This document shows positions 1,198-33,189 of a stretch of 64,000 bases of DNA, piece after piece. The notes beneath the pieces were generated by a model that had not been told where the DNA came from, made no database searches, and saw only the letters and a list, made by a program, of their open reading frames with translations. This stretch comes from Mesodorylaimus sp. YZB2_4. Its lineage: Eukaryota; Nematoda; Enoplea; Dorylaimida; Dorylaimidae. Numbering within the stretch: position 1 is the first letter of the stretch; each line of letters begins with the position of its first letter. The stretch lies in assembly GCA_030248295.1 (NCBI GenBank), contig JASANH010001537.1, positions 186,001-250,000 on the forward strand. Direction: 5' to 3'. The position numbers and the translations under genes are program-made.

Positions 1198-2169
1198 TCA
1201 TTTCCTGTTTTCCGCTGCCGTTGCCGCTGCATCGGCGCTAATTGGTCCAATCTTATTCTTGAGGCAACACAAGAATTCCAGCGAGATTTGTTGAAATCCT
1301 TTATTGAATACTGCGAAAGCCACGATGTTCAGTACCGAATCCATACAGTATATCATAACTGGATATATGGTATAGCGTAATGGAAAGTGCACGCTGCCCG
1401 AGTTGTACAATGCGAGCAAGATATTTGGTATTACGACGCAAAATATGTTTGTGATGCCAATCATCAGCATACATTTGGCCAGTTTGATCTGTTTTCGTAC
1501 TCTAAGCATTTCGGCGTTGCTATTGGCTGGCATTTTCTTGATTCTTTGCCTCCCAACATGTACTCCAAGACCGGAGCATATAGTAGCGCAAATGCCACCC
1601 AAAACGGCAGGGCCATGCACCCCATAGATAGCGTATCGATCGCCTAGGATAGAGGGAGGGATACAAGCGGCAGATACGAAGTGATCGGAATTAAGCCAAG
1701 CCAACAGCCAATTGATACCCATGGAAATGACTCCTATCAGGAAGGAGAGTATGGTCAGCTGCCATAAATTACTAGGTGTGCAGTGATTGCGGTACCATAT
1801 CGGAGTGGACACAGCCAATAAACGATCCAGGCCAGCCAAAGCCAGAAATAACGGCAGCAGCTGGAATGTGGTGATGAATAGGTTAGGCCACATGATCCTG
1901 ATGCAGTACAGGCTGGTGACCAGGTCGAATTGGTAGACCGGGGTCCAGAAACCATGGATGGCGTGCATGAGACTATTCAATATGTGAGTTATAGTCAGTC
2001 CGATTAGGAGAGATGGCGATTTCAAGAGCCGTTTGGAATAGATAAAGGTGGCCAGGATGTACAAGTTGACTAATGTGCCCACGATTCCTATGCCTCCCAA
2101 GATCTGATATAAATAGGGACTGGGCGGAGGATCGTTGATGTAAGCTGAATAATCTCTAGAATTATTCAT
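1198..2169 (-). CDS. srsx-like seven-transmembrane chemoreceptor, intact
   Basis: Single-exon 323-residue protein with seven hydrophobic segments (about 23-46, 53-76, 94-118, 136-158, 183-205, 231-254 and 262-288). At the end of TM3 the DRY-like motif reads LDRLLAVSTPIWYR, with Asp115-Arg116; Cys89 before TM3 and Cys169 in the second outer loop could form the usual disulphide. TM7 ends LNIVAFAVFN. This layout fits nematode serpentine receptors of the srsx type, which act as G-protein-coupled chemosensory receptors at the cell surface, mostly in ciliated neurons. The ligand cannot be inferred. It is a more distant relative of the four plus-strand receptors at 19.6-33.2 kb and, unlike most of them, has no frameshift or stop. 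The start is the only ATG before TM1 and gives a short Asn-containing extracellular N-terminus. Assignment to srsx rather than a neighbouring serpentine class is tentative. Confidence 0.85.
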   Translation of the reverse strand: MNNSRDYSAYINDPPPSPYLYQILGGIGIVGTLVNLYILATFIYSKRLLKSPSLLIGLTITHILNSLMHAIHGFWTPVYQFDLVTSLYCIRIMWPNLFITTFQLLPLFLALAGLDRLLAVSTPIWYRNHCTPSNLWQLTILSFLIGVISMGINWLLAWLNSDHFVSAACIPPSILGDRYAIYGVHGPAVLGGICATICSGLGVHVGRQRIKKMPANSNAEMLRVRKQIKLAKCMLMIGITNIFCVVIPNILLALYNSGSVHFPLRYTIYPVMIYCMDSVLNIVAFAVFNKGFQQISLEFLCCLKNKIGPISADAAATAAENRK

Positions 2170-2300
2170 TTCCCAAAAATACAGTCTATGTCACTTGGCT
2201 CACTGGGTAAGAGACCACAGTAATCTGTTCCTGATCGGAAATAAGAAAATGACACAAGTCACAAGCGAATGGGTGTCGAGGAGGAGGTCATAGCCTCACG

Positions 2301-4765: not shown

Positions 4766-4858
4766 TTAGCTGTACTGGTACAGTGCCGTGCCGTATCCTT
4801 CCGTCCAGCACCTTGCATTGGCACCATTGTATGGCACATCTATGAATTTGCACTTTCC
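4766..4858 (-). pseudogene. NlpC/P60-like family, 3' exon fragment
   Basis: The last ~30 residues of exon 2 of the family described at 6050-6495 are recognisable, including FIDVPYNGANARCW and a terminal GYGTALYQYS before TAA at 4766-4768. Upstream on the minus strand the frame breaks (in-frame stop), and no histidine region or exon 1 is found. It is a truncated relic, closest to copy A, which lies 1.2 kb away in the same orientation, so probably a tandem duplicate. Confidence 0.7.
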
Positions 4859-4972
4859 ATTACTCTATACCATATATCCAGTTATGATATACTGTTTGGA
4901 TTGCGCCGCGCGCCCCATGGATACACTTACGATATGGCCAGCCAACCAGCATATTTGAACTTATCCACTTGA

Positions 4973-6049
4973 AAATGCGACATAATCAGATACTCTTGGA
5001 CACGTAAATCATAAATGGCTCCTTTGAGGAAAATAAGATAATAAAATGTTCGAACAGTATTACCCCGTAGCAGGGAATGCGTGAACACATACGCATGGAT
5101 TAAAAAATTTTTGAATTTTTGCCTGTTTCTCGAGAGTGAGGTTTGACTTTACACTGCGGGCGAACCAACTATTCGGTACAGTATGTGCAGGGAAGCAAAT
5201 GGCCTATTATTTTAGAAGAAATCCAATGTTCTGTAAACAAAAAACATGATTATGCATAGCTCAATAATCAGTCTACTAACCTCAGCCTTCGCTTTCCAGT
5301 CAGTGTAACTCCCTTCCTAAAAAATGAAGAGTCGTTATCAGCTGACTAGGATCAAATTGTTTGTCTCTCTAAAACTGTCCGATCCACTTTGCAGTTGTTT
5401 TGGTTATACATACACGGTTGCTTACACGCAGCTGGTGCGCGTCAGCTAGCCACCGCTACTATCATGCTTCCTCGACATGTTGTCAAAGGTCATCTCGATG
5501 CTTAATAGAGCTGACGGGCGCCTGGTTGTATTTGCGTCTACGCTGCTTGTGAGAAGATCTTGTAAGAATCGAGTTCACGAAGAAGACAAGGAACGAGCAG
5601 TGGCATGCATTGAGCGAGAGTGCTGTGTCTGAAACAGTAACACTTAGTGAGTTAATGTGGACCTCTATTACGATTTCTGTAATCTATGTACAGTAGATAC
5701 TCTTATTCTAACATGAACACTGACTCGTCAGAACAGAAATGCTTCGAGTAGACAAGAAGGTGCTACCTGCCTTCATGGACGATGATGTAACAACACCCGT
5801 TTGTGCACATCGGGTGAGCTCAGCAGCACACTGTTTCCTGGCCTTGTCATTATGTGTTTGAGGGTTTTTGCAAAAATTCCCCGTAACAAATTCTTTGCAT
5901 CCACTCCATTCTTCTTGTCTTGGGCACTTTTACAGTTCTTAGATCTTAAACTCAAATTTGTACCAAAAAACCTGGCGAGCGCAGAAACCAGTGCCTAGGT
6001 AAAATATCACAAATATGTAAAGTTCGCAGTTATCCTGTTTGGGCGGGTG
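4973..6049. other. No gene recognised
   Basis: AT-rich sequence with no family-supported frame, no tRNA and no clear repeat structure. Confidence 0.4.
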
Positions 6050-6495
6050 TCAGCGGGGGTAGTTGTATTTGTACATCATGGTCCCATAATCCTGTGTCCA
6101 GCACCTGACATTGGCACCGTCGTACGGCACGTCGACGAATGTGCACGGGCAATAGGCGTGGCCGACGTAAATAGCCAGCCAGTGGAGGCTCCCAGGGAAT
6201 CCAACAATGTCTCCAGGTGTCACATTGTAATATGGATAAGTCCCGATTGGTGATCCTTGATTGTAATCCCTGGCCTGCGACAGAACAGCAAAGAATTTAG
6301 GGCATATTCAAAACCTATTGGAACAGCACTTACTGATCGATGAGGTTTTCCAAGAAGATCCGCAATCAGGCCACTGGCACCGGTGTAGTAGATTTGAATC
6401 ACTTTGTTACAGGCTTGTACAACATTGACGTTGTCTTGAAGACTAAGACTTATCAGACCGAGAATGACAATGGCAGCAAATGTGCGAGGGACCAT
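6050..6495 (-). CDS. Secreted NlpC/P60-like protein A, predicted inactive
   Basis: Two exons, 6334-6495 and 6050-6274, joined in phase 0 across a 59-nt intron (donor GTAAGT, acceptor CGCAG), giving 129 residues. It begins with a signal peptide (MVPRTFAAIVILGLISLS) and is probably secreted. The fold matches NlpC/P60 cysteine peptidase/amidases: helix motif ASGLIADLLGKP, then TPGDIVGFPG and strand LAIYVG, then a conserved CPCTFVDVP segment. In active enzymes the helix carries the nucleophilic Cys (CSGL), but here it is Ala; the histidine strand also has three extra residues and lacks His directly after PG. A hydrolase function is therefore unlikely, and a binding role or decay is possible. An in-frame upstream ATG at 6540 is less favoured because it would bury the signal peptide. 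Paralogues: B at 11669-12113, C at 17298-17749. Confidence 0.75.
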
Positions 6496-6540
6496 AGTGA
6501 GTTCAATAGGCGGAACCAAGTTCCAGTGGGAAGATGGCAC

Positions 6541-7922
6541 CTTTGGTAAGCAAGAAACTTATATAAGATATCACATTGGCATGAAGAAGTCGAAAATAAT
6601 TTCGGGTGTGCGCGCGAGTCTTCGATGAACTAAACGATAACATTCCTCTTTGCACTTTATGACATGCTATATTGACGCAACCTCGCCCGCCTTATCTCAA
6701 AGTCCAATTTTTCTACCTTTGCGCACTGCACAGCCCATGTCGTTGTCAGGCAGGGCAGACTTTTTTCACGGATTCCTAAGCTATTAGCTCGAGATGTTTT
6801 AAATTTTTACGGTACGTTATCAGACTTGATTCTAATATAAGTTGCAAAGCATTTTCTGAGATTGATTAACTTGTCAGGTCGTCTTTTTTGCATGCACATG
6901 GACTTATTACTATGACGGGTATTTGATTCGATCGAGATGAGGTAGTGTGTTTATGACTCAATAAAAGTGGCAGGTAAGCAAGGATGATGAGATGATAACT
7001 AGTTCTTACCTGTTACTGGGGTGCAAGGTACTCAGGCTACGAACTTTTTGAACTCCTTCGAGTATTTCAGGACGGATATTTGACACGCTGCCAATATCAG
7101 GCCAATTTTCTCTGCTTATCAAGGCAGCAGTTCAAATTGCAAATGTTATGTAAAAAGCCGATCTGAGAAGTGAATCAGTTCTCGATCCGATCCGACTGCT
7201 GGACCGACAGGATTGGCAACTGAAATTTTTCGCTCTTTATCTGCTAAAGAATTATAAGGAGTGCCATTATATGATGAGAAAGTTCCGTTTTTCCTCTCAA
7301 ATTAGCATTCAATCACACTTTATGCTCTGCTTATCTCCCACCTGTGTCCTTTGGAGTTGACTGACAGAGAGTGACAGCGAGGGAACATAGCAGGTTGGCG
7401 AGGACGCAGTGCCAAGTACGCCATCCCCATCAATCTGAAATTTTTTGAAGCGGATCGGATGGATCGGATCGGTCGATGCTGCCCTTGGACCAGGCGAGAG
7501 TAACCCAAGAAGCAAACGTGGCCGCTATCACAACATGGCATTAGCATGGCAATCGAATAATAAAACAAAGAGATCGTGAACTATTTGAGGCATATTTCAT
7601 ATCTTCTGGGAGTAATGATGACGATTTACGCATGAATGCTTTATTCTTAGACGAAGGCTCAAAATTTTGAATAGCCGCAGTTTCTCAAAACTGATGGTGG
7701 GGGAAACGACACGGTGGGGAAACCGTCACAGTGGGGGGGGGGGGGGGGAATCGACCAAGTGGGTAGAATCGTCTCACAATCATCAGTGCAGGCGGTCTTG
7801 CGCTTTGATGGTTAAAACGAAGAGGCTGAACGAGTTTGAAATTTTACGACAGGGCAGACACGATTTAGTACACGAACACGAGATCGAGATCACGGGATCA
7901 CGGGATCATCATCACATTGCGG
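6541..7922. other. No gene recognised; 16-base G tract
   Basis: No family-supported frame. A mono-G tract lies at 7733-7748, about 170 bp beyond the 3' end of the MSP gene. Confidence 0.4.
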
Positions 7923-8294
7923 TCACTCGTTGTACTTGAGGGCCATGTTCTTGCGGCGGACGATAGAATCGCCAGTGAACCAGTCGCGGCTGTACTTCTT
8001 GGGAGCACCGGCCGGGGAGTCGGTCCATTCGATGGTCACGCGATCCGACGACGTGTCGGCGCCAGAGAAGGGTTTGACCGTGACCCACAACGTGGTCGTC
8101 TCGCTCGGATCCAAGCAGCCGTTGGCCGGGTCGATTTCGATGCGGTCGGGACCGACGGTGCTCTTCAGATGAAAGCCGATGCGTCGCACGCCGCCGTTGG
8201 TCAGACGGATGCGCACTTTCAGGAATTCATCGAACGGCGCGTTGTACCACAACTGGTCGAACGGCACGGTCTTGATGTCGCCAGGGATCGACAT
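7923..8294 (-). CDS. Major sperm protein
   Basis: Single-exon 123-residue protein, essentially the family's normal length (C. elegans copies are 127). It opens MSIPGDIKT and keeps the family landmarks: YNAPFDEF, RRIGF, LDPSETT, DRVTIEWTDSPAG, DWFTGDS, VRRKN and a final YNE. MSP is an immunoglobulin-like fold that polymerises into the fibres driving amoeboid sperm crawling; in other nematodes it is also released as a signal for oocyte maturation. The frame stays open upstream to 8570, but residues before this Met match nothing in the family, so 8294 is the start. It differs from the C. elegans MSPs at many positions, as expected for a distant nematode. Expression in the male germ line is inferred from the family. 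Confidence 0.95.
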   Translation of the reverse strand: MSIPGDIKTVPFDQLWYNAPFDEFLKVRIRLTNGGVRRIGFHLKSTVGPDRIEIDPANGCLDPSETTTLWVTVKPFSGADTSSDRVTIEWTDSPAGAPKKYSRDWFTGDSIVRRKNMALKYNE

Positions 8295-8391
8295 GGTCAC
8301 CGAAGCTTGATGGCTGGACGCAACGAGAGATCGAAGTTGGCCGCACAGATGCTCGCTCAAGAACAGAATGATTGAACCTCTGTCAAGCAGC

Positions 8392-8400
8392 ATCTTATAA
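8392..8400 (-). promoter_or_regulatory. Possible TATA element of the MSP gene
   Basis: Minus-strand TTTATAAG about 100 nt upstream of the MSP start codon. Weak evidence: one short AT-rich match. Confidence 0.25.
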
Positions 8401-8599
8401 AGAATCATTTTGCAAAAAATGTAAAGTGTCAATAACTTTACGCTGGATTTTTCTGGGACGTTTGCAGCGCAGCGGAAGAGCGCTGTACAGTACATTCTAG
8501 CCAAATAATTCACGCATTGCACAGCATGTAACCAACGCGATTTAAATATCGAAGACGTTTCCAGGAACAAAATGCGAATTCGTCTTTACTGAAACTGAC

Positions 8600-9930
8600 A
8601 AAACTGGAAAAAAGGCAGTGATAAATGACTACGAAATCGCTTTTTTAATTGGTGGATCAATCCACTCAAGTTCAACGATTCTTGCAAATTTTTCATCCTG
8701 TAAAAGATGAAATGGAAGTCTTTTCAGATACTATTTCAGCAGAGACCAGCTTCAGAAACCAGGTCCGAGGGTGAAGACAGAAGACAGAACCCATACTTGG
8801 TATGCCCTATTTACTGTTTATTCCTCACGTAAACGCTTCAGCGCACTAAGATGGTGGGACACGCTGAAAACATAGCATACATAGATCAGTCAAAGAACAT
8901 ATTACAAAGCGACACTCGGAAGACTCTGTCGAAAAACATCAGTGCTGTATGTCCACGCCAATTCGGGACTCAATTCGCTCCATAAAATAATGGTCGAATG
9001 ATCAAGGCACTGCTCAAAAGCCTTGGTCCTAGTGCTATTTTCAGGTGAAAACAGTGAAGGCTCCTTGTTCACTCTTTCACTCATCCTCCAACACATGTCT
9101 GAAACGAGCATTCAGGCATCTTTCACAATTTGTGAAACTGAACTAGCTTCAGTTTGTGTCGCCTCCGCTGCCACCCCACAACTGATAAAAGGTGATAAAA
9201 GGTACATTCCCAAAGAAAACAAATAGTATGTATGCTGATCCATATATGTCAATGGCGGCCCTAATCGTGCCGGCGTCACATTGACCGCGAATGAGAGCAC
9301 ATCCAACAGTTTCGCAGTTGAAATAACAGCCGCTCATGAAAATCTTGCACTCCAATGTGCCCACTCATGATCTGCATGATCTGTGGCAGCGATTGTGTAG
9401 GAGAGGCGAACTGTGCTGCCGCTGATTAGTTGAAAGCACGGGGTACGGAGAGAGTTAGTGCTTTGAATGACCACAAGGACCAGTGCATATTGCGGATGAT
9501 GTCCGGCTATGTACTTCTGTTTAATTTGGGAATCTCACGCACGACTGGAGTGAGAATAAAAAAGAACAGTTTTTCTCATTCGAGGCCTTGCAAAGCCCAA
9601 GACATGAAGAGCCGGTTCGACAAGGGTGTTATCAGTTTCGGCAAAATTGTACGGCGACTTGCAATGAGCACATCGCCAAGTGGGCGAAACTGAGAGTGAG
9701 TATGACCAGTGTCCCAGAAGGCCTGCTGTAACGCCGCTTACCGTTCTGAAGTTTCGCTCGTCTCGTGAATCAATTACGCATGTCCACGTCACGACAGTGT
9801 GTGCGGTTTTTGCTGAGGAATCACTCATACCTGACTCAAACACACCATTATAGGGAGAAATCCCTGCAAATCCAAGAATGGACAAACGACCACAAAACTA
9901 CTTCAAATAAGCAAGAAATGACGGAGAGTA
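8600..9930. other. No gene recognised
   Basis: A short minus-strand frame near 9230-9364 has several cysteines, but no start, splice logic or family match supports it. Confidence 0.35.
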
Positions 9931-10048
9931 TGGTACGACCATACCACGGTGAAAATACGGCATCCCGTCAGATCTGCCAAGTCAAGCACCGTCGGGCCCG
10001 GTTAGTACTTGGATGGGAGACCGCCTGGGAACTCCGGGTGTCGTACTC
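9931..10048 (+). rRNA. 5S ribosomal RNA
   Basis: About 118 nt, close to the usual 119-120. The ends pair (GTACGAC with GTCGTAC), and the hallmark blocks TACGACCATACCAC, CATCCCGTCAGATCTG, TTAGTACTTGGATGGGAGAC and GCCTGGGAA are present in order and resemble the C. elegans 5S sequence. A run of four T (10049-10052) directly after the 3' end fits RNA polymerase III termination. In many nematodes 5S genes are arrayed with spliced-leader RNA genes; here only one copy is visible, so it may be a dispersed copy outside the main array. Confidence 0.9.
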
Positions 10049-10052
10049 TTTT
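10049..10052 (+). terminator. Pol III terminator of the 5S gene
   Basis: TTTT immediately after the end of the mature 5S sequence. Confidence 0.6.
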
Positions 10053-10228
10053 GCATCCCTCACAGAAGAATGCTGTTTTTCTGAATCGTGCAGTCTCTAG
10101 TGCACCCATGGTCGAGTCTTCGCTGACCCTTTTTGTTTTCCTGTTGGCCGTGCATTGCTTTTCTTCCAAAGTGACAATCTACGTGCAGTACAGGCGGATT
10201 TTGAGTCATGATCCTGATTACATATAGC

Positions 10229-10585
10229 TCACAAGTTCGACTGCCATCGATAATCCATCTCGAATATCAGACAAATTTGAGTCAGCTCATGACCAATCAG
10301 AACTGCGGACGCCTGTAGGAAATTTAAAAAGTCGATAAATTTTTGTGGAATAATTCGGGTGCACCGCGGTGTCACCAAAAAATGTAATGTATTGATGTAA
10401 CGTTGTTGTTCGAGCAAACGTGACAGATCTTCTTCGCGCTCGTACCGGCGGGTTCGGGCAGATCTTACAAGCGAGCGGTCCAAGGTCTTCAATAGCCCAA
10501 GCCTGGTAGAAAGGCTTATTCCTGCAGAGTATCGATCACTAAAACCCCGACTCCTCAACAACCCCCTCAGGCTTGTTCTAGACAT
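10229..10585 (-). CDS. Hypothetical 118-residue open frame
   Basis: A basic N-terminal half rich in Arg and a more hydrophobic second half; no family recognised. It abuts a SINE-A copy on its upstream side, so the promoter is unclear. It may be a real exon or a chance frame. Confidence 0.2.
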   Translation of the reverse strand: MSRTSLRGLLRSRGFSDRYSAGISLSTRLGLLKTLDRSLVRSARTRRYEREEDLSRLLEQQRYINTLHFLVTPRCTRIIPQKFIDFLNFLQASAVLIGHELTQICLIFEMDYRWQSNL

Positions 10586-10589
10586 ACAG

Positions 10590-11018
10590 CACTGTAGTTA
10601 TGCCGAAGCCCGTTTTTGCCTCGAGCCAGCCAGCAGTCACCGCCTGAGCAAGGCTGTGCGGGGGCCAGCACACACAGCAGTGTCCCTCTGCGTGTTTCCA
10701 TTGGGAGAACCTCCACGCGAGGGCACCCTGGACTGGACACCGGCTTCCTCGGACAATGGCGGGTGGCTTTTGAGCTCTTCCTGTCGGTGCTCGACAGCTG
10801 AGACTGTCTACTCGTTCGGTTTCCGTCTCTCCACTCGGAGCACCTCGACGGCACAGAGTGAGTCACCCAGGGGGCCTTGAGTGCAAGGCGAGCGAGGGTT
10901 TATGGTTCGCAAACCGACCTCCGTCACCAGGGATTGAACTTAGGACGAGTCCAGTCACTCGCTCCCAAGCAATATGGAGAGACAAATGCCAGACCGCTGC
11001 ACCACCGCGCCCGCACCC
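10590..11018 (-). mobile_element. tRNA-derived SINE-A, near full-length
   Basis: Reading the minus strand, it begins GCGGTGGTGCAGCGGTCTGG; TGGTGCAGCGG fits the pol III A box exactly, and a B-box-like AGTTCAATCCC follows. The ~430-bp body matches 13203-13545 along its length and 2737-2960 with a gap. The 3' end shares CTGGCTCGAGGCAAAAACGG-type sequence with the window start. Confidence 0.75.
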
Positions 11019-11668
11019 ACGAAAGCGTTGGGTACTTATAGTGGGATAGTATGTACGAGTAGTCTATTGTAGTGCAGCCAATTGATACCCTGCCACAATG
11101 TTTCAGAGAAAAGGATTGAAAAATTGTGCTTCTTTGAATATTTGCGGTATTCGTTCAGAATAAGCGTACTCGTAACAAGGCAAATGCGCCTCCTGTGCTG
11201 TTTTTCTTGGCGGGACCAGTGCTTCCAGGCATTAGAAGTCGGGACTATTCGTGAGGCGACCAACAACAAAAATGTGGTACCCCAGGTTTAGTCAGGGAGG
11301 GGCACAGAGTGGGGTAAATTCTCGGCCGATGAGGAAAAAAGTGAACATTTTCATGCATAATATTTCAAAAACGTTTTTCAAAGAGGAGCTGTGCCATCCA
11401 CGCACACAGTAAAGTCAGCATCTAAAAAACCCTGCCTACTTTACTTTACGAAACACAGTTAACAGTACAGTTAGGTAGAAGAATCGAAGCATCCCGGCCA
11501 CAGTGCTCTTTTACACGCACTGTAGGGACTGGTAAACTAACACAAAGCAAAGCTAGTAGTGCTGTGACTCTTTATTATCGTTCTGAACGTCCAGCATTCC
11601 AGAATTTATCAACAACGGAAATCAATCGTCAAAAGTAACAATTTGCAAATACAAACTGGATTTGGCGT

Positions 11669-12113
11669 TTAATTTGGGTAACTGTACTCGTAGATCAAAA
11701 CCGATCCATACCCGACTATATTGCACCTGGCGTTCATCCCAGGTCCAGGAACATCGATGAACAGGCACTGGCACCCTTGGTTGCCAATGTAAATAGCCAA
11801 CCACTGTAAGTGACCGGGGATTCCAACCACATCGCCTGGCGTGGCGTTGTAGTTATTGAAAATGCCTATCGGAGCTCCTTGGATGTACTCTTCCGCCTGT
11901 GAGAAAAGAGAGGGGATAAAAGGAATCAAGTGGTTTTAACCAGCGTCATACCGATTTCCACGATTTGCCCAGTAGCTGGGCCACCATATCACTGCTACCA
12001 CCGGGGAAGATTTTGGTAACCTTGCTGCAAGCAAGTTTTGGGTCCACGTTGTCCTGCTGACTGAAGCCCACCAAGGCTAAAAGAGCAATCGCAGTCAGGA
12101 GAGAGGGATTCAT
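11669..12113 (-). CDS. Secreted NlpC/P60-like protein B, predicted inactive
   Basis: Exons 11952-12113 and 11669-11896 with a 55-nt intron (GTATGA donor, TCACAG acceptor), phase 0, 129 residues. Exon 1 is the same length as in copy A. A signal peptide (MNPSLLTAIALLALVGFS) predicts secretion. The helix that should hold the catalytic Cys reads GSSDMVAQLLGKSW: Cys is replaced by Ser and the following Gly by Asp. The second exon has TPGDVVGIPGH and LAIYIG but with three extra residues (LQW) between His and the strand, then CQCLFIDVP as in the paralogues. The loss of the nucleophile differs from copy A (Ala there), implying independent loss. It could still bind peptidoglycan-like ligands. Confidence 0.75.
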
Positions 12114-12794
12114 TGTGCGACTGGTGAGTTCGAAGCGACTTTCTCAAGTAGTGTTTTCTACAAGAAGCTAGCTGCTTAAATGTAACTTACAAGCGAAGAA
12201 CTAACGAAAAATAGGTTGAGTACACACAGCTAGTTGGCATTCCTTGATTATGACGATTGTGGCAAAGATAAGACGCCTAAGCTGCCTTTCAACTTACGCG
12301 TCATGCTAGCGAGTATTATCTCTGCTGTGGGGCAGACATATAGTTGTTTCTGCTTGGAATTTTTCCGCCTGATGTGATAGTTCATTGTCGCACGCTTTCG
12401 TACTTCAAATTCCACAGAGCACGAGTATCAAAAAAGCCACACCACATAGCTACTCAATTTGCTACTTTGGACTTGGGAATCTGTTTTGAAAAAGTGTGTT
12501 GTAAATGTTGACGATGATACGCGGAGACGCCTTTAACTCTGTGACATTCGTGGCAAACGACTGTCATGCATGTCAAAAGTAGATTTCTCTAAAATATGGT
12601 CCCACTATGCACTCTAGCTTTAAATGTTGAGATACTGACAATGTGATTTGCATTCGTGAGCCTGAGATAATGCTCTTGTCCTGCAAACTGCGATGCTCAA
12701 AGCCACCCATGTTGAATGCAAAACGCTAGAATATTGCTGAAAATCCTTTTTTGACCTCACCAAAAATCGTCGCCTGCACCTCCTACGTAGCTAA

Positions 12795-12905
12795 TGTAAC
12801 CCGCACCTCCCCGTGCAAGTGGTTCCTTCTTCCTCATCCGCATGGCACGTGTGTTTCCAGCACGTGAAGTTACTTCCACGTGTCTTGCCCGTCCGGGCAC
12901 AGGGC
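12795..12905 (+). repeat. Dispersed repeat C, copy 1
   Basis: About 110 bp matching 36430-36535 in inverted orientation (shared blocks include AAGTGGTTCCTTCT and GGCACGTGTGTTTCCAGCAC) and, more weakly, 37165-37260. No coding signal. Confidence 0.55.
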
Positions 12906-12942
12906 AGATCAGCCAGACAAACCAGATCTCTCCCACCTTCTC

Positions 12943-12987
12943 CCGCCCGCCCCCCCCGCCCCCCCTCCCCCCCCCCCCCCCCCCCCC

Positions 12988-13020
<33 letters not shown>

Positions 13021-13035
13021 ACCCCGGCCCCCCCC

Positions 13036-13072
<37 letters not shown>
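12943..13072 (+). repeat. 130-bp cytosine-rich low-complexity tract
   Basis: Almost pure C with scattered T, A and G. It creates long artificial Pro-rich (plus) and Gly-rich (minus) frames. G-quadruplex potential lies on the minus strand. Imperfect interruptions suggest either slippage mutation or a poorly resolved assembly segment. Confidence 0.85.
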
Positions 13073-13074
<2 letters not shown>

Positions 13075-13202
13075 ACCCCACTGGAGTATGGCACGAGTGT
13101 TTTGGAGTTTTGGTATTTTGGAGGATTTTGAGAGATTTCTATCGAATTCAAGAGAAGAGAGAACTCGAAGTCATATTATAACAAAATTAAGACAGGCTTT
13201 TT

Positions 13203-13545
13203 AGCCGCAGCGGCGCAGCAGTCCGGCATTCGTTTCTCCGTATTGCTTTAGATCGGTGACGGATGTCAGTTTGCGAACCACAAACCCTCGCTGACCTTGC
13301 ACGCCAGGCCGTGGGTGACTCACCCGGTGCCGTCGAGGTGCTCCGAGTGGACAGAAGGAAGCCAAACGTGCAGACAGTCTCGGCTGTCGAACACCGACAG
13401 GGTTTAAGACCCCCACCATCGTCCGAGGAAGTCTGTGTGCAGTTCAAAGCTGCCTGTGCGCTGGTCACAAGCACAGCCTTGCTTATAAGGTTTGACTGCT
13501 GGCCAGCTATAGGCAGAATGGGCTTAGGCCCGCAAAAATTTAAAA
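13203..13545 (+). mobile_element. tRNA-derived SINE-A copy
   Basis: Starts GCGGCGCAGCAGTCCGG (A-box-like) and follows the same body as 10590-11018: GCCGTCGAGGTGCTCCGAGT, the GACAGTCTCGGCTGTCGA block and the 3' GACTGCTGGCCAGCTATAGG block. The B box is eroded by a deletion near 13255. Confidence 0.65.
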
Positions 13546-14163
13546 GACAGGCTTTCTGTAAGAGTTGACCTAGGGGCTCAGGTTTTAATTTTCTTTACGC
13601 ACGATGCATCCAACTCACGTACGTCAAAACTTTTAGCTAGTGCCTCCCCAGGTCGAGTCAGAAAGCCTGTCTTAATCCAGATGGCTGAAACAAACAGGTT
13701 CGTCAGAAGTTTAGAATCATAGTTTAGAAGTTAGATTTGAAGGCATTTTATTGTTTGATTATTATGATTCGTGTACTTATTGTGTAAAAACCTCTGATCC
13801 TTATATTTCAGGCGATCCTGTGGTGTTTTTTAGCAAGTATCAACGTATCTGATTCTGAGCTCTCTTTGGAGGCCTATCCCAAAAATGGCATTCCAATCGT
13901 GCACAGCAAAAGCCCAAGAAAAGTCAAACTCGCTCGGCACATCACGACTACCTACTTACTGACTTGGTGATTCAAGGAAAGCTTGCTGGTGGAGGAAAAT
14001 GACAAAATGCAAAAGGTGATGATGGCGATGAAATCATTGATTCTGGCAGTGATAACTGAATAAATCGAGATCTAGCGGAATGCTAGAACAATGCGGGTTT
14101 TCTGAATGATGTCTAACGATTTCCTGGGCTACTGTACCTCACTTCTGCCTGCCGCTTTGCTAT

Positions 14164-14346
14164 CATGTTCATGTTCATGTTCATGTTCATGTTTTACCAC
14201 ATCACCAAACGCTTATGCGCACTCGAGGGTGAAGGGACACATTTTACACGAAAATGATTTACCGGCCCGCGAGTCGAACACTCGCCCGTAACTGCGCACC
14301 TGGCGTGAGAGGCAGACGCCTAACCCACCAGGCCACGAGGCCGGTC
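14164..14346 (-). mobile_element. tRNA-Glu-derived SINE with LINE-like 3' tail
   Basis: The minus-strand 5' part (about 14346-14262) folds like a tRNA with CUC anticodon context CTGCCTCTCACGC and a B-box-like TGTTCGACTCG. It has a lengthened anticodon/variable region and a diverged A box, so it is not a working tRNA. The next ~65 nt (CTCGAGTGCGCAT, GCGTTT, AAAC) align with the 3' end of the LINE at 15766-15850. It ends in a (ATGAAC)n microsatellite at 14164-14193, parallel to the LINE's (ATGA)n tail. This is the classic partner arrangement in which a SINE borrows the LINE end recognised by reverse transcriptase. Confidence 0.75.
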
Positions 14347-14569
14347 CACGAGGGCTATATTGCTGTGCCGCAGTATACTGTATAACCCTAACGTTTGGGT
14401 AACGCGAGGATCTCAGGCTAGCGGATACTAGGCACGGCAAGTAACTGCCATAAAAAATGACGACTCTGGCATCTTCTGGCATCTAACTTTAGTCACAGAA
14501 CATTCTTCTTCAGTCCATGCACTCCGTAGCCACCGGTATACAAAAATTGTGACCGCGAAATGGCCAGGG

Positions 14570-14745
14570 AAGTTTAACCAACGTACCCAGGCTGCGAGAT
14601 GCGAGAGACCAAAATCTCTTTGACTAGTAACTCTGAGCAGTGTAGTCCCCAGGAAAACTGGCAAGACGACTGAAGAATGAACATCCCTGCCGGGGAATAG
14701 TATTAGTATCCCGACCGCCCAGGAATGCTGGTTACAGAAGCCAAG
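14570..14745 (+). repeat. Dispersed repeat B, copy 3
   Basis: Has AAAATCTCTTTGACTAGTAA and the 3' GCCCAGGAATGCTGGTTACAG block shared with 225-395 and 49486-49715. An 18-base poly-A run lies downstream near 14851-14868. Confidence 0.45.
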
Positions 14746-15765
14746 TAATTTGCTCACCCGAGGAGGCCCCCTTGTACAGTAATAGTTGTTTGGTCCAGTC
14801 CTGGCCCCGCGACGATGGGCCTCCCCCTTTGAGCAACACACACAACCCCAAAAAAAAAAAAAAAAAAACGTCGCATCGCAAGCTTATTTGACGCATCGCA
14901 TCGAACTATACTTCCAGCTTTATTGTAAGCCAAGAATTTGAACGAGACAGTTGTGAAAGGGATGTTAGGTATTTCTCTTACCTTTTCCCAAGGCTTTTTC
15001 AAAGGTGAGCCTTCACTTAAGTGCAGCCTTTAGCATAACAGGTTCCAGCTTGTTGCAAGATTTTTCTGTTTTGATCTTTTGTCACATGTGCAATTCACTG
15101 GACTCAACGACAAGGTCGCAACGGCAGCCAATTACTCGGGCACGTTCACAGGCCCGTCTGATGTTTTAGTGCAGTAGACCAGGTACTACATGACTTCTAA
15201 CGATAAGTTATCTCCGCAACGGACAATAACAACAGGAAAAGCCAGATTATTTGGCGATCTGGTCAAGTGAAGACAGTGGCTGCAAGATGTGTTCTGTCAG
15301 CATATTTCGCGTGCCTCACTTTTCCTACACCCAAACGTGAAAGGTTGTATAGGCGTTATACTGTAAGTAGGCACATCACTGTGTTCACATCACCTCGTCA
15401 GTCAATGCGCAATATGTGGGGACTGAATGGCGTCATGGAAATTCACGCACTGTAAAAACTTCCACGAGCATTTACTGATCAACCTACACAAAGCGTATCT
15501 AATGAAAACGTTCTGAAGGATGAGATTGGACTGTTGGAGCGTTTGCACTACGCCAAAATCCCAGTGCAGTGAGCCCAATCTTCCGACCTTGTTCATGGCC
15601 GTGACATCACCCTGATGGTGGAGCAATCATCACAGTTAGACAATCTTCTGCAATTATGAGCCACTCACATGTGCTTACACGTACATGTGCTGGGCTTACG
15701 GGTAACAGGTCCGACACGAGTCCTAATGGCATGCATAATCATGGAAATACTGCTTGCTACAGACA

Positions 15766-17050
15766 TTCATTCATTCATTCATTCATTCATAGTTTACTCG
15801 TACCTAAACGCGAATGCGCACTCTAGAGGTAAGAGACACGAACACGAAACCAATACAGATAAAACTCATAAGTCACCGAACTTTAGTGCAGACACGGCAT
15901 GTTTAAAACGAGTTAGTGACGACAGAGCTACATCAGAAGAAAGATCGTTCCATAAGGAAGAAGCTGAGAAAATAAAACTTTGCCTGTACGACTCAAAAAA
16001 ATGCCTCGGTAAAATAAGATGATGCGCTGCAAAGTCTGTCACTAGTTCTAAAATCAGATCTATGAATAAATCGCCGGTTACAAAAATCGTGCATTCCATG
16101 ATAATACTTGTAAAATTGGCACAGTTTCTGGCGCTTACGCCTATCAAAAAGAGAGCTCCATCCTGCGTGATTCAGCGCAACATCGTATGTACTCGTAAAA
16201 TCATTCAAAAAAAGCCTAAGCGCATAAAAATTTGCACGCTCTAACTCCTCGATATCACCTTTTAAAATGGGATCCCAAGCTACTGCTCCATATTCTAAAA
16301 CTGATCGAATACACGACGTATATACAGTGCCAAGGACAGAGTTAGAAATATGCCTACCCAATCTACGTCTCAGGGCGCCAATCATAATGTTACATTTGCG
16401 AACAGCATCAGAAACGTGTTCAGTAAATTTCATATCGCTCGAAAAGGTCACACCCAAATACTTTACCTCAGAGTAAAAGTTCAAATCTTGACCACCTACA
16501 AATAACTTTGGAGTACGCTGCATGTTGCCGCTACCATAGCGAAAGATAATTGCTTGGGATTTTGGAATATTGAAGCGCAGACCTGCAGAGTTCACCATTT
16601 CCGAAATGAAGTCAATGCACGGTTGTACGAAGCTTTCGACAGCATCCAAAGCGGGCACGGGTACGAGTAAACCAGTGTCATCGGCGACGCCTGGAGCAAA
16701 CAATCGGGAAACAATCTGGGAATTCCTGGAACAAGGGAAGGAGGAAAACAAAAAAAAAAGTTGGACAAAGGAAAACCCCCGTGGGAAACCATAAAAAAAA
16801 AGAAAGAAAGAGGGAAGACACAACAACAAGAAAAAAAAGGGTAGAAAAAAAAAAAAAAAAAAAAAAAAAACAAAAAAAATAATTTTAAAAAATAAAAAAA
16901 AAAAAAAAAAACAAAAAAAAAAAGTGTGAAGTTGATCAAAGGCTTTTTGCAAGTCAAGGAATACGCCAACCACGAATTTCGATTTTTTCGAATTTAGAGC
17001 GTCGTGAATAAATTGACATTGACATTGACAAATTGACATGTAAATTGACA
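15766..17050 (-). mobile_element. LINE (non-LTR retrotransposon) 3' half, broken
   Basis: Minus-strand reverse-transcriptase sequence: FLDLQKAFD near 16935-16965, the catalytic ADD motif (VADDTGLLV) near 16670-16690, then KYLGVTFSSDMKF and the thumb region AWDPILKGDIEELERA, ending at a stop at 15866. The fingers/palm stretch between FLDLQKAFD and ADD is replaced by A/T low complexity (16745-16925), and a frameshift occurs near 16020. The 3' UTR ends in a (GAAT)n repeat at about 15768-15790. The element is 5'-truncated near 17050. Its end sequence is shared with the SINE at 14164-14346. It is a relative of the LINE at 55836-56740 and cannot be active. Confidence 0.85.
16745..16925. repeat. A-rich low-complexity block inside the LINE
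   Basis: Long A runs with sparse C, G and T replace the central palm of the reverse transcriptase without closing the frame (it encodes Phe on the minus strand). It resembles the T-rich block at 57385-57510 and the C-rich block at 12943-13072. Confidence 0.8.
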
Positions 17051-17297
17051 GACAAAGTGAGCTTATAAATGCCACTCGTAATTATGGCGCAGTACACTTG
17101 CTGATAAAGAGAAGAGTGGCATCCGCTGACGAAACAGGCTAGTATCAGTGTTTAGCGCGAACCGAGTAACAATAGGATAATAAACAAAGGGTCTCCATAC
17201 ACGAATACCAGCTTGCGAAGTTTATTGATCGGAAATTCGTCGCGGTATCGCACTGCACACCGGCATATCACAGCTCTCACATAAGCCTGCGCCCATG

Positions 17298-17749
17298 TCA
17301 ATAGTAGACTTTATATACAGTCTGTGCTCCGTAACCATTTCTCACGCATCGCGCATTGGCGTTTGGTCCAGGTACGTCAACGAACATGCAATCGCAGCTT
17401 TGTCGTCCGACATAAACTGCGACGTGACCAGGAAAGCCTACTAGCTCACCAGGGGACACACCACTGTAGCGATTGTTGGAGCCAATAGATTGGCCTCGCC
17501 TGTAGCTGTCAGCCTACAAAGAAAGGCTGGTTAGCTCATTGGAGTTCGACCAACTGTGTCAGCTACTGGTGGGATTGCAAGCCTTCTTACCGATTTCCAT
17601 GGCTTTCCCAAAAGCTCAGCCGTCAACCCGCTGCATCCTTGAGCATAATATTTTCCGATTTTGCTGCACGCGGCCGATGTGCTGACCGTGTCTTGCAGGC
17701 TGGCCTCGACCAACACGAGGACTAGAAGGGCGTGAAACAAAGAACTCAT
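17298..17749 (-). CDS. Secreted NlpC/P60-like protein C, catalytic residues kept
   Basis: Exons 17591-17749 and 17298-17513, 77-nt intron (GTAAGA donor, TTTGTAG acceptor), phase 0, 124 residues. The signal peptide [18 protein letters not shown] predicts secretion. The helix motif [14 protein letters not shown] places the nucleophile at Cys39, and [17 protein letters not shown] places His at residue 83, the canonical NlpC/P60 spacing and local context. The third polar residue of the triad may be the Asp of FVDVP, which all four copies keep (inference). Enzymes of this fold cleave peptidoglycan stem peptides or related amide bonds, so a secreted worm version could act on bacteria in the gut or surroundings. 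It is the only copy here likely to be catalytic. Confidence 0.8.
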
Positions 17750-19035: not shown

Positions 19036-19613
19036 TTACTTACTCACCTAAGTAGGCAACATACTGTACGTAGCAAGCAACCACCGCATGAAAGGCAGTC
19101 CTCGTGAACACAAAATTTTTTTGCGTCTGTAACCAAGGTGTCGCCGCTACGACATATACGTGCCGTATGCAAACAACAAAACGGCAGGCTCATTCTTGTT
19201 GGGGACGTACTTTGGCTGGTTCTCTCTCGAGAGATCAGTCCGAAATATCTTGGCAATCACATGAAACTGACTGGCCTATTGTCCAATTTCTAAGCTCGAC
19301 TTCCCTATAGACCTCATTGAAACGACGAGTCTTGGCAGTCCTGCATAAGTTAGAAGTTCGCTGGCGAAGGTACTACTGTATTTCAAACAAGGCACTTGGG
19401 GGCTTCATTTGAATTTTACGGTCCTGGCAATCTACTTCGTGTATGAGTTTTAATCAAGTTCATTTAGCGCTGCCTCATTTGCGCAAGTACCAAAGGCTCG
19501 AGAGCACTGCACATCTGCATCTGCACACACACAGTGGCCGTCTGGGGATGAAGAGGCTAGACCCTTTGATATGTACCCGATGCTCATCTCCGTTTCATGT
19601 TAGAATAACAAGG

Positions 19614-20340
19614 GTTAAGGGTTATGTGGCCCAACCTGTTCATCACCACATATCAGCTGCTGCCCCTGCTACTGGCACTGGCGGGCACCGAGCGGTTGCT
19701 GGCACTGGTGGCTCCCGTGTGGTATCGAAACAAGTGCATGAATCGAAGACTGTGGATCCTGACCACAGTCGCCTTCGCGCACACCCCGGTGTCCCTGGCC
19801 ATCAACTGGTTGCTGGCCTGGCTGAACTCGATGGGCCAACTGATCTCGGCGTCCAGCATCCCTCCTCTGGTAATCGGATTTCCTAACATGAGCTACGGCG
19901 TGCATATACCGGCTGTGCTGGGAGGCGTGTGGGCGACGGTATGCACTGCCGTTGGTGTGCACATTGGGCGGGGCAAAATCAAGAAGATGCCGACGACGAG
20001 CAAGAGCGAAATTGGGCGCGTAAACAAGCAGATCCGACTGGCCCAGTGTCTGCTCATGATCAGTTCGATAGACGTGGTGTGCGTCGTCATTCCCAACATC
20101 GTGTTCATACTCTTCAATTCGCAAATAATCTCCTTCCCAATGAGCCACACAATCTACGTTGTTGGTGTTTACTTGTCTGACTCGGTGCTGAACATCGTGG
20201 CATTCATTCTGTTCAATGAAGAATTCCGCAAGACGTCCATGAAGCTTTTGCGTATCGGCAAGACTACAGTGGGGCCTATGACCACTGATGCGTCAGCTAA
20301 CATCAGGGGGCATCTGACTGGAAAATCGGTCAGATGGTAG
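19614..20340 (+). pseudogene. srsx-like 7TM receptor, 5'-truncated copy
   Basis: The frame from 19624 encodes 238 residues that align with the receptors at 24259 and 32182 from the start of TM3 (MWPNLFITT) to the C-terminus, including TERLLALVAPVWYR and LNIVAFILFN. TM1, TM2 and the N-terminus are missing; similarity begins abruptly at about 19614, and upstream sequence is unrelated. A receptor without TM1-2 should not fold, so this is a truncated duplicate even though the remaining frame is open. There is no poly-A tail, so DNA-level duplication is more likely than retroposition. Confidence 0.8.
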
Positions 20341-23943: not shown

Positions 23944-24258
23944 GGGAGCTCATTTCAGAAGCAGTCTTGGCGAGAGACTTGTCTCTTGCGAGCGAAAGAA
24001 TTCCCCACATTTACATAATATACAGTAGTACCAGCTACTTGACCGAATAGACAATTGGGCACTTGCACTGGATAACGGGCTGTCAGGAGATCCACTCCTT
24101 CGCAATGCAATATGTACATCCATTTTGTGTGCGAGTAACTATAACAAAGACAGGGCAATTCATTCAGAAGCTCAACTGCTGCACATGCGCCATTCCTTTT
24201 CAAAAAATATCAACAACTGTCGGCCGTATTTTTTCCTCGGCTGTAAATCTGCCCAAAA

Positions 24259-25250
24259 ATGAACAACACTGCCGATGAGCATGTGCTGGATGATCCTCCC
24301 CCGACTGCCCTGAGCTATCGAGTGGTCGGAGTCATCGGACTGGTGGCAGCTGGCATTAACATATTCATCCTAACTGTGTTCTTCTCGTCCAGACGCCTGC
24401 TAACCACCTCGGCTCTGCTGGTCGGACTGACGATTGGACACGCGTGCAACGGACTCGTGCATTCCATGTACGCCTTCTGGTCAGGTGAATACCAAAGCTT
24501 CATGGTGAGTCCGCTCTACTGTATCAAGGTTATATGGCCTAACCTGTTCATCACCACCTATCAGCTGCTGCCCCTGCTACTGGCACTGGCGGGCACCGAG
24601 CGGTTGCTGGCACTGGTGGCTCCCGTGTGGTATCGAAACAAGTGCACGAATCGAAGACTGTGGATCCTGACCATGGTCGCCTTCACGCACACCCCAGTGT
24701 CCCTGGCCATCAACTGGTTGCTGGCCTGGCTGAACTCAATGGGCCAATTGATCTCGGCGTCCTGCATCCCTCAGTTTATCACTGGAGTTCCGTACGTGAT
24801 TTATGGCGTCCATGTACCAGCTGCGTTAGGTGGTGTGTGGGCCACGCTTTGTACTGCCGTCGGTGTGCACATCGGGCGGGGGAAAATGAAGAATAAACCG
24901 ACGACGAGCAAGAGCGAGATAGGGAGAGTGAACAAGCAAATCCGACTGGCCCAGTGTCTGCTCATGATCAGTTCGATAGACGTGGCGTGCGTCGTCATTC
25001 CCAACGTCGTGTTCATACTCTTCAACTCGCAAATAATCTCCTTTCCAATGAGCCACACAATCTACACGTTTACCTGTCCGACTCGCTGCTGAACATTGAG
25101 GCATTTATTTTGTTCAATGAAGAATTTCGAAACACGTCCATGAAGCTTTTGCGTCTCGCCAGGACTCCAGTGGTGCCCATGAGCACTGATGCATCAACTA
25201 GCATCAGGCGAAATTTGAATGGCAGATTAAGTCGCAAGCTTGACGCTTGA
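24259..25250 (+). pseudogene. srsx-like 7TM receptor with a frameshift in TM7
   Basis: It opens MNNTADEHVLDDPPPTALSY and follows the 32182 receptor closely, with TM1-TM6, TERLLALVAPVWYR and both loop cysteines. At about 25065-25075, 7 nt are lost relative to the 32182 copy, so the frame runs into a stop at 25090-25092 (277 residues). TM7 and the C-terminal tail continue in another frame to 25250 (LNIEAFILFNEEF). Without TM7 the receptor should be non-functional. Its 5' flank (from about 23943) also matches the flank of the 32182 gene, so a segment including the promoter was duplicated. Confidence 0.8.
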
Positions 25251-25259
25251 GTGAGCAGA

Positions 25260-26152
25260 TTTAGCTAAATTTGCTGTCAGGCTATTATGTCGTTTATGAG
25301 CTGAGCTCTTCGGCCTAGTAGGCTGAGCTTCGCCTAGTTGGAGTAAGTGTTTGAGGTGGTTTGCTTTGGCCGATTTCAGTGTGTTTTGCCAGTCTCAGAA
25401 GCGTTTACAGTAAACAGCACCACGCGACGCCAACAGTACACCAAAAAACCAGCCGCAGCCTACCACAAACAAGACACGATAACATAATTATGTCACAAAC
25501 CATATTTGGTTAGGAGTGAAGCAGTGACCTCCAGAAAAAAGGAATGCACCAGTATAGCCCTCGATGAGAAAGTACAGCTAGCATAGCATCCACTGTAATC
25601 CAGTAACGTTTTAAAAAGACAACTTGAAATAAATCTACGTTATTTTCGAGACTTATGGCTGAGGTAATCAGAAAGCAACTCCTAAACTAATCCAGGCCCC
25701 AAATAGAAAACTCATTGGAATCATTAAACATTGGTACCTCGGCTATACCGTCATAAACTTGACAAGTCTAGGTCAAGGACTTATATGACTTACAAGATTG
25801 CCAAAAGCGTCGAAGCTGGCTTTCATAATAGGCAACATTTCGCTGCTCGTTTTTACTTCACGCCACTTCTTTTGCAACGGAAACAGTTTCTTTATGAAAT
25901 CTGACTCGGCGTTTTCCTACTGCTCAGCCATCGCGCATAACTCCGTGCATTTGTCCCAAATGCTAATCTTCCCGTGGCTTTGCGCCAGTTATTTACAAGG
26001 CAGCCATAATCCATGTCAATCATCAAACTACTGTAGGCCTACATCACATTCAATTGATAGCGAGTAAATGACATCATTTTTTGAGTTCTAGGATTCACAC
26101 CGTTGTTTTGTTCACACCGGAATAATTTTTCATCGGAAAAATAAAATTTTCA
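25260..26152. other. No gene recognised
   Basis: AT-rich sequence without supportable coding or RNA features. Confidence 0.4.
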
Positions 26153-29077: not shown

Positions 29078-30045
29078 ATGAGCAACAACACATTTGAAGA
29101 AATCGCGCAGATCAAACCCACCTCCAAAATTCTTGGACTCATGGGCATGTCAGCTGTCTTTACTAATTTATTCATTTTACTGGTACTTGTCTCAAATCCC
29201 CACCTTTTGAAATGCTCCTCATTGTTGACTGGACTGACTATAGCCCATTTATCCAATGGAATATGCCATGCGTTCGATGGGTTTTAAGGGGCCGAATATA
29301 TGTTCGATTTGGCAACCCCTCTGCACTGCATAGAAGTGATCTGTCACTTTGTCACATTGTCACTTTTCAACTACTCCCGGTCCTATTAGCTCTGGCAGGC
29401 ACCCAGCGGCTGTTGGCCTTGCCAGCTCCGATGTGGTACAGAAGCAAATGCACGCATCGACGGCAATGGCTAGTTACAGCAGGGTCCTTTCTCTGTGCTC
29501 TGTTGTCCATGGGGATTAACTGGATTCTAGGTTGGTTCAACTCCGGTCAACCCATTTCAGCCGCCTGTGTTCCGCCATCGATCGTGGGTATCGGCAACGT
29601 TACCTTTGGTGAGCATCTGCTGGCTGTGCTGGGAGGAGCATGTGCCACAATATGCACAGCTTTCGGGATCAATATCGGGCGACGAAGGATCAGCAAAATG
29701 CCTGTGAATAGTGAAAGCGAAATTGCCAGAGTGAAGAAACAAATCAGGCTGGCAAAATGTTTATTGATGATCAGTGTCATCGATGTGGCGTGTGTGGTCA
29801 TCCCAAATATTTTTCTCATTTTATACAATCTTCAGCTCTTCTATTTTCCACTCGAACATACAATCTTTGTGGTTATGGTATACTGCTCCGATTCCACGCT
29901 GAATATTATCGCGTTCGTCGTGTTCAATCGTGATTTCTGGAAGGCAGCACTCATATTATTGACTTGTGGCAGGGCGGGTGCTCAGCCACAAGTCACGTTC
30001 AATGAAACAAGCACTCCAACAAATATCGGTCAAAGGCACCGTTAG
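29078..30045 (+). pseudogene. srsx-like 7TM receptor with stop and frameshift
   Basis: It starts MSNNTFEEIAQIKPT with a normal TM1 and TM2. Where the paralogues have HGFW after TM2, this copy reads DGF followed by TAA at 29285-29287. A one-base shift near 29350 then moves the rest (FQLLPVLLALAGTQRLLAL to the C-terminus at 30045) into another frame. The remaining ~220 residues are well conserved, including CTHRRQW, INWILGWFNS and the TM7 LNIIAFVVFN, so decay is recent. It is more diverged from the 24259/32182 pair than they are from each other. GTQR replaces the DR/ER at the TM3 end, which may also impair G-protein coupling. Confidence 0.8.
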
Positions 30046-31847: not shown

Positions 31848-32181
31848 CGTTCAGGGAGCTCATTTATGGACCTGTCCTGGCAAGCGACTGTCTCTGATGA
31901 TAAAAAGGTTCTCACTTTCAATAATGTTGTGCCACAGCTGCCAGGACCAAGATGACAATGGCGCACTTGCACCTGGCTGGAAAAGGAGTTGTCTGGGGAT
32001 ACATCCTTTCCCAAGGGCATCATAAGTGGGACGTTTATGTAGGAGACTACATACATACACGTCCCACTTATTAATAGCAATAACAAGACAGAATCATTCA
32101 GAAAAGTGCCAGTTCATCTGCTTCGCAACACTAGTTAGCAGATATCTCTTTTTCCTCGCGACTGTACTTAATCTGCCGAAA
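31848..32181 (+). repeat. Duplicated 5' flank of the receptor genes
   Basis: From GGGAGCTCATTT onward this flank resembles 23943-24258 upstream of the receptor at 24259 (shared blocks around GGCAAGCGACTGTCTCT and before the ATG). It probably holds the shared promoter; no specific site is assigned. Confidence 0.45.
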
Positions 32182-33186
32182 ATGAACCATACTGCTGACG
32201 AGAATGTGCAGGATGATCCTCCCCCGACTGCCCTGAGCTATCGAGTGGTCGGAGTCATCGGATTGGTGGCAGCTGGCATCAACATATTCATCCTAAGTGT
32301 GTTCTTCTCGTCCAGACGCCTGCTAACCACCTCGGCTCTGCTGGTCGGACTGACGATCGGACACGCGTGCAACGGACTCGTGCATTCCATGTACGCCTTC
32401 TGGTCAGGTGAATACCAAAGCTTCATGGTGAGTCCACTCTACTGCATCAAGGTTATATGGCCCAACCTGTTCATCACCACATATCAGCTGCTGCCCCTGC
32501 TACTGGCACTGGCGGGCACCGAGCGGTTGCTGGCACTGGTGGCTCCCGTGTGGTATCGAAACAAGTGCACGAATCGGAGACTGTGGATCCTGACCATGGT
32601 CGCTTTCACGCACACCCCAGTGTCCCTGGGCATCAACTGGTTGCTGGCCTGGCTGAACTCGATGGGCCAAGTGATCTCGGCGTCCTGCATCCCTCCGTTT
32701 ATCACTGGAGTTCCGTACGTGATTTATGGCGTCCATGTACCAGCTGCGTTAGGTGGTGTGTGGGCCACGCTTTGCACTGCCGTCGGTGTGCATATCGGGA
32801 GGGGCAAAATGAAGAAAATGCCGACGACGAGCAAAGGCGAGATTGCCAGAGTGAACAAGCAAATCCGACTGGCCCAGTGTCTGCTCATGATCAGTTCGAT
32901 AGACGTGGCGTGCGTCGTCATTCCCAACGTCGTATTAGCACTGTTGAATTCACAAATAATCTTCTTCCCAATGAGTCACACAATCTACCTTGTCGGTGTG
33001 TACCTGTCTGACTCGGTGCTGAACATCGTGGCATTCATTCTGTTCAATCAAGAATTTCGAACTACGTCCATGCAGCTATTGCGTCTTGGCAAAAGTTCGG
33101 ATGCAGTGGTGCCCATGACCAATGAAGGATCAACTAGCATCAGAAGAAATTTGAATGGCAGCACCAGCTGCAAGGCTGATACTTGA
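32182..33186 (+). CDS. srsx-like seven-transmembrane chemoreceptor, intact
   Basis: Single exon, 334 residues, starting MNHTADENVQDDPPPTALSY. TM1 begins at GVIGLVAAGINIF, TM3 ends TERLLALVAPVWYR, TM5 GVWATLCTAVGVHIG, and TM7 DSVLNIVAFILFN is followed by a Ser/Asn-rich tail. It is the only fully open member of the four plus-strand paralogues (19614, 24259, 29078 and this). The frame stays open upstream to 32026, but that stretch matches the 5' flank of the 24259 copy and has no family match, so the start at 32182 is preferred. Predicted role: surface chemosensory GPCR in sensory neurons, ligand unknown. The C-terminus has no recognised motif. Confidence 0.88.
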   Translation: MNHTADENVQDDPPPTALSYRVVGVIGLVAAGINIFILSVFFSSRRLLTTSALLVGLTIGHACNGLVHSMYAFWSGEYQSFMVSPLYCIKVIWPNLFITTYQLLPLLLALAGTERLLALVAPVWYRNKCTNRRLWILTMVAFTHTPVSLGINWLLAWLNSMGQVISASCIPPFITGVPYVIYGVHVPAALGGVWATLCTAVGVHIGRGKMKKMPTTSKGEIARVNKQIRLAQCLLMISSIDVACVVIPNVVLALLNSQIIFFPMSHTIYLVGVYLSDSVLNIVAFILFNQEFRTTSMQLLRLGKSSDAVVPMTNEGSTSIRRNLNGSTSCKADT

Positions 33187-33189
33187 GCA

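Follow-up and report, generated by a model that had tools for sequence, protein, structure and literature searches.

Our analysis supports the view that three minus-strand genes, here called A, B and C, encode remote homologues of the NlpC/P60 domain (C40, PF00877) whose nucleophile position and third triad residue lie in register with those of the bacterial domains. The genes lie within 11.7 kb (6050–17749) of a 64,000-nucleotide stretch of the nematode Mesodorylaimus sp. YZB2_4 (contig JASANH010001537.1, positions 186,001–250,000; hereafter the window). We favor, with a probability of roughly 0.6, an interpretation in which they form a secreted and shortened NlpC/P60 family, with C as a working hydrolase and A and B retained as non-cutting proteins. 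If true, this would show that in an animal, too, a wall enzyme family of bacterial type has divided into a cutter and preserved non-cutters.

The kinship with NlpC/P60, which a sequence-only reading of the window had proposed, emerges most clearly from a comparison of profiles in which the bacterial side was not selected by C. Sixty genomes of the actinobacterial phylum were searched with PF00877 itself, 49 of the 60 matched, and 29 PF00877 domains were cut out by a CSG-type motif from the 30 loci listed. A profile-profile comparison (hhalign) of A/B/C with these 29 domains gave a probability of 96.5% and an E-value of 8.1e-10, and the alignment runs from the nucleophile to the third-triad strand, where the F(V/I)DVP segment of A/B/C falls on the bacterial MINAPSKGNNVRI. 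In this alignment an insertion common to A and B moves the His of C off the bacterial His column; when C alone was aligned with the bacterial profile, its Cys39 fell on Cys and its His83 on His. As single proteins scored against the 29-domain profile, A, C and B reached 17.2, 13.9 and 6.9 bits, respectively, as compared with 7.8, 8.3 and 6.6 bits for the best of 1000 shuffles of each, which leaves B barely above its shuffles.

Searches with single sequences pointed to the same family at or below the margin of significance. The sole Pfam match was NLPC_P60 for C (E 0.13; 12.6 bits, below the gathering cut-off of 23), A and B had no Pfam match, and a PF00877 scan of the nematode's own genome returned none. 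A PDB search with C listed the NlpC/P60 protein 8er5 as the second of three matches (E 0.16), and one phage match (E 0.6) and two plasmid matches (E 0.2 and 0.4), all non-significant, each started at Cys39, one of them being annotated as a C40 peptidase. Of 99 stretches in GTDB genomes that fit a pattern, two code for a relative: a Nakamurella locus (L007), 43% identical over residues 39–89, whose protein passes NLPC_P60 at 4e-10, and a second locus (L008), 64% identical over residues 65–89, which has no Pfam match. Against 394 actinobacterial genomes, C gave 19 matches in 18 genomes at E <= 0.01. Judged by eye, nine of these (L016, L022, L023, L026, L028, L029, L030, L032 and L036, the motif of L023 being degenerate) have a motif that looks like NlpC/P60, their Cys and His facing Cys39 and His83 of C, and the other ten, including those with the second and third best E-values, look like chance frames. 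An alignment built from eight of the nine NlpC/P60-like loci matches NlpC/P60 structures in PDB. If the assignment is right, a family of this kind can fall under standard domain cut-offs, and similar families may be missed in annotation.

That A, B and C are alike beyond chance follows from the identity of A (48%) and B (50%) to C across the whole protein and from an intron located at the same residue in all three, immediately after ...KS in B and C and ...RS in A. Each gene consists of a first exon of 159–162 nucleotides (nt), a phase-0 GT-AG intron of 55–77 nt and a second exon of 216–228 nt up to the stop codon, and the encoded proteins are 128 (A), 129 (B) and 124 (C) residues long. Gene A (6050–6495) has exon 1 at 6334–6495, with the hydrophobic N-terminus and GASGL, a 59-nt intron at 6275–6333 and exon 2 at 6050–6274. 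Gene B (11669–12113) has exon 1, with GSSD, at 11952–12113, a 55-nt intron at 11897–11951, exon 2 at 11669–11896 and an AATAAA about 90 nt downstream. Gene C (17298–17749) has exon 1, with GCSGL, at 17591–17749, a 77-nt intron at 17514–17590, exon 2 at 17298–17513 and an AATAAA about 70 nt downstream. The exons, splice sites, intron phase and nucleophile motifs are all as the sequence-only reading described; its range of 4766–17749 does contain the genes, which themselves begin at 6050, the earlier start adding only a 28-codon relic of exon 2 from a fourth copy (4769–4852, minus strand), closest to A and 64% identical to it there. In each protein a hydrophobic N-terminal stretch precedes a conserved QD(N/T)V, an arrangement consistent with a signal peptide. 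Exon-by-exon searches with C and B, whose counts are lower bounds, found no further family copies in the whole genome.

At the nucleophile position C has Cys39 (codon TGC, 17633–17635), A has Ala40 (GCC, 6376–6378) and B has Ser40 (AGC, 11994–11996), the codons here and below being counted from exon starts. In C the putative base, His83 (17424–17426), and a putative third triad residue, Asp99 (17376–17378), follow; Cys precedes His, the order found in NlpC/P60 and not that of a circularly permuted domain. All 37 bacterial domains in the comparison have Cys in the nucleophile column and His in the base column; the Cys count is partly assured, since a CSG-type motif or a match to C had served to find the domains. 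The third column is more variable (His 18, Glu 8, Asp 4, Ser 4, other 3), being His, Glu or Asp in 30 of the 37, and A, B and C all carry Asp there, a polar residue of the kind seen in NlpC/P60. The third triad Asp that had been suggested for a family-specific CxCxF(V/I)DVP segment is thus in register with the bacterial third-triad strand; the Asp sits at an ordinary triad position, and what is specific to the family is the preceding CxC pair. Nor is an acidic residue at the third position unusual for this group, since the Mycobacterium tuberculosis endopeptidases RipA and RipB use a Cys-His-Glu triad (PMC12067865, PMC6628586). Apart from His83, the only His of C is His6, in the hydrophobic N-terminus. 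C has five Cys, and A and B hold just the four that are common to all three, an even number, which suggests two disulfides in the family plus one free thiol in C. It is plausible from these residues that C is an active hydrolase.

Next to the His strand, A and B share the three-residue insertion that had been noticed earlier (SLHW in A and HLQW in B, versus H in C). The residue that precedes the strand VAVYVG/LAIYVG/LAIYIG is His in C and Trp in both A (Trp86, 6179–6181) and B (Trp86, 11801–11803). Two registers are available: MAFFT sets Ser of A and His of B in the bacterial His column, while the bacterial hidden Markov model (HMM) and the following strand place Trp there in both. We favor the Trp register because the following strand is a fixed element. 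By either register A has both nucleophile and His replaced (Ala40, with Ser or Trp), and B has Ser40 together with His by MAFFT or Trp by HMM and strand. In a tree with the 37 bacterial domains, eight of them chosen for matching C, A and B are joined as a clade (97% ultrafast bootstrap) within a fully supported family (100%) on a long branch. The sequence-only reading held that A and B, although related, had lost the nucleophile separately; their sister relationship stands, but the common insertion, the common Trp and the common ancestry fit a single ancestral loss. Catalysis was therefore probably lost once, in the ancestor of A and B, and the nucleophile position diverged later, although the codons TGC, AGC and GCC are compatible with either path.

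The reading frames of A, B and C have been constrained through much of their history. Between A and B, the proportion of nonsynonymous differences (pN) is 0.33 and that of synonymous differences (pS) 0.73 over 128 codons (dN 0.44; dS 2.8, near saturation), and the corresponding values are 0.39 and 0.75 for A and C and 0.36 and 0.79 for B and C. The comparison of A with B, proposed earlier as a check for plain decay, thus revealed open frames in which nonsynonymous divergence is far below synonymous.

We propose that the family consists of a single shortened NlpC/P60 domain of about 105 residues, secreted and held by two disulfides. C would most likely be a working cysteine hydrolase that cuts bacterial wall peptides with the triad Cys39-His83-Asp99. 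A and B would descend from one duplicate in which the His geometry was lost through Trp and the three-residue insertion; the same lineage would also have lost the Cys, which is now Ala in A and Ser in B. Selection would then have retained both as non-cutting proteins, the simplest possibility being that they bind wall peptides in the old cleft, in a feeding or defence role. That A and B may bind wall fragments is suggested by analogy with RipD (Rv1566c) of M. tuberculosis, in which Ala83-Ser132-Glu144 replace the triad; RipD binds peptidoglycan without cutting it (PMC12067865).

Two observations limit this interpretation. The Asp of the bacterial DCSG motif and the loop ahead of the nucleophile are absent from A, B and C; in all three the nucleophile is preceded by a Gly, which aligns with that of the bacterial PYxWG. 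Since in RipA the DCSG Asp contacts gamma-D-Glu (PMC6628586), C may have an altered specificity or be inactive. In addition, the relic of the fourth copy still has a low pN relative to pS when compared with A (0.18 versus 0.63, over 28 codons only), indicating that past constraint can come to an end and is no proof of a present function for A and B. The first of these observations gives substance to the most serious competing explanation, namely that all three proteins use the NlpC/P60 scaffold for binding or signalling without catalysis and that the Cys and His of C are inherited but unused. We assign this a minority share of the probability, because C has its three triad positions filled in register, by Cys, His and an acidic residue, and has one Cys beyond the common four.

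That A and B are merely decaying duplicates without function would agree with the loss of their triad, with the presence of a truly decayed fragment near A and with the failure to find AATAAA or ATTAAA within 200 nt of the gene A stop codon; nevertheless, the open frames, intact GT-AG introns and low A–B pN relative to pS make it improbable. Slightly less probable still is that the family is unrelated to NlpC/P60 and that a short secreted beta protein has come to resemble it by chance or convergence. The sub-threshold Pfam score could be read in this way, as could a PDB search with the three-sequence A/B/C profile that had no NlpC/P60 protein among its matches and a structural model of C exon 2 folded alone (predicted local distance difference test score, 61) that had five strands and no NlpC/P60 in its fold list, although this model is partial and uninformative. 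Against it, the Pfam, PDB, GTDB, phage and plasmid searches all indicate NlpC/P60 in one register, and the profile comparison, whose bacterial side was not selected by C, gives an E-value of 8.1e-10.

Eukaryotic NlpC/P60 proteins are already known, as is a disarmed one in mycobacteria, and the A/B/C family resembles these cases. RipD is the closest precedent for A and B: it is a disarmed NlpC/P60 domain, and A reads Ala-Ser-Asp at the triad positions in the MAFFT register. Unlike RipD, which is bacterial, A and B come from an animal genome, are single-domain proteins with four conserved Cys and carry an insertion whose last residue, Trp, takes the His position. C resembles RipA and RipB in its acidic third triad residue, but those enzymes possess the DCSG Asp and regulatory pro-regions. 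The house dust mite protein LytFM is described as a single-domain NlpC/P60 endopeptidase of about 14 kDa with an extra Cys pair that is likely a disulfide, placed nearest to some actinomycetes in a tree (PMC5586350). Compared by description only, it shares with A/B/C an animal host, a small size, a single NlpC/P60 domain and an extra Cys pair, but no inactive sister copies are mentioned for the mite in the available part of that report. Trichomonas has a eukaryotic NlpC/P60 gene family of nine proteins, reported to be peptidoglycan-active and laterally acquired, and unnamed animal matches are reported as well; the organism is a protist, and its proteins have a Cys179-His234-His246 triad and two SH3b domains (PMC6299479). 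Searches of one literature library listed no paper whose title concerns a nematode NlpC/P60 protein. The proposed division into cutter and non-cutters has a parallel in the peptidoglycan recognition proteins (PGRPs), which are split into enzymes and binders. A more speculative scenario, which we regard as less likely than not, is that a nematode lineage acquired a bacterial wall hydrolase, shrank it to a disulfide-locked mini-domain and duplicated it, one branch becoming constrained, disarmed receptors or decoys for wall peptides beside an active enzyme, as an animal counterpart of RipD.

In the stretch next to the relic (4853–4940, minus strand), WLAI runs into GTAAGT, and 78 nt separate this point from CKFIDVP (by eye), so that the fourth copy may once have had an additional intron or insertion. 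The surrounding genome, 145 Mb in size, has abundant TTAGGC arrays. An open frame between A and B (7923–8585, minus strand) encodes a major sperm protein domain (PF00635, E 1e-8, above the cut-off). At gathering thresholds, Rfam matches nothing in the window except a 5S rRNA gene (9931–10049, plus strand; 106 bits). A dispersed, perhaps short interspersed element (SINE)-like repeat occurs in both orientations at 2734–2939, 10657–11014 and 13255–13446, with pieces 74–90% alike. A minus-strand frame at 15993–17081 resembles a reverse transcriptase fragment, and an A-rich tract is present on the plus strand near 16850–16925 (by eye). Receptor-like genes or pieces of genes are clustered at 1198–2190 (minus strand), 19609–20340 (plus strand), about 24230–25269, 29361–29928 and 32149–33206. 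The first of these has an Srsx match just under the Pfam cut-off (23.4 versus 24.1 bits), and the second has no Pfam match, yet is 55% identical to the first over 228 residues; the DNA copies at 19620, 24528 and 32451 are 87–90% alike. The TTAGGC arrays, the major sperm protein frame and these receptor genes by themselves point to a nematode genome. Farther downstream, two segments of about 690 bases (40527–41215 and 41358–42045) form an inverted repeat pair whose members are 83% alike.

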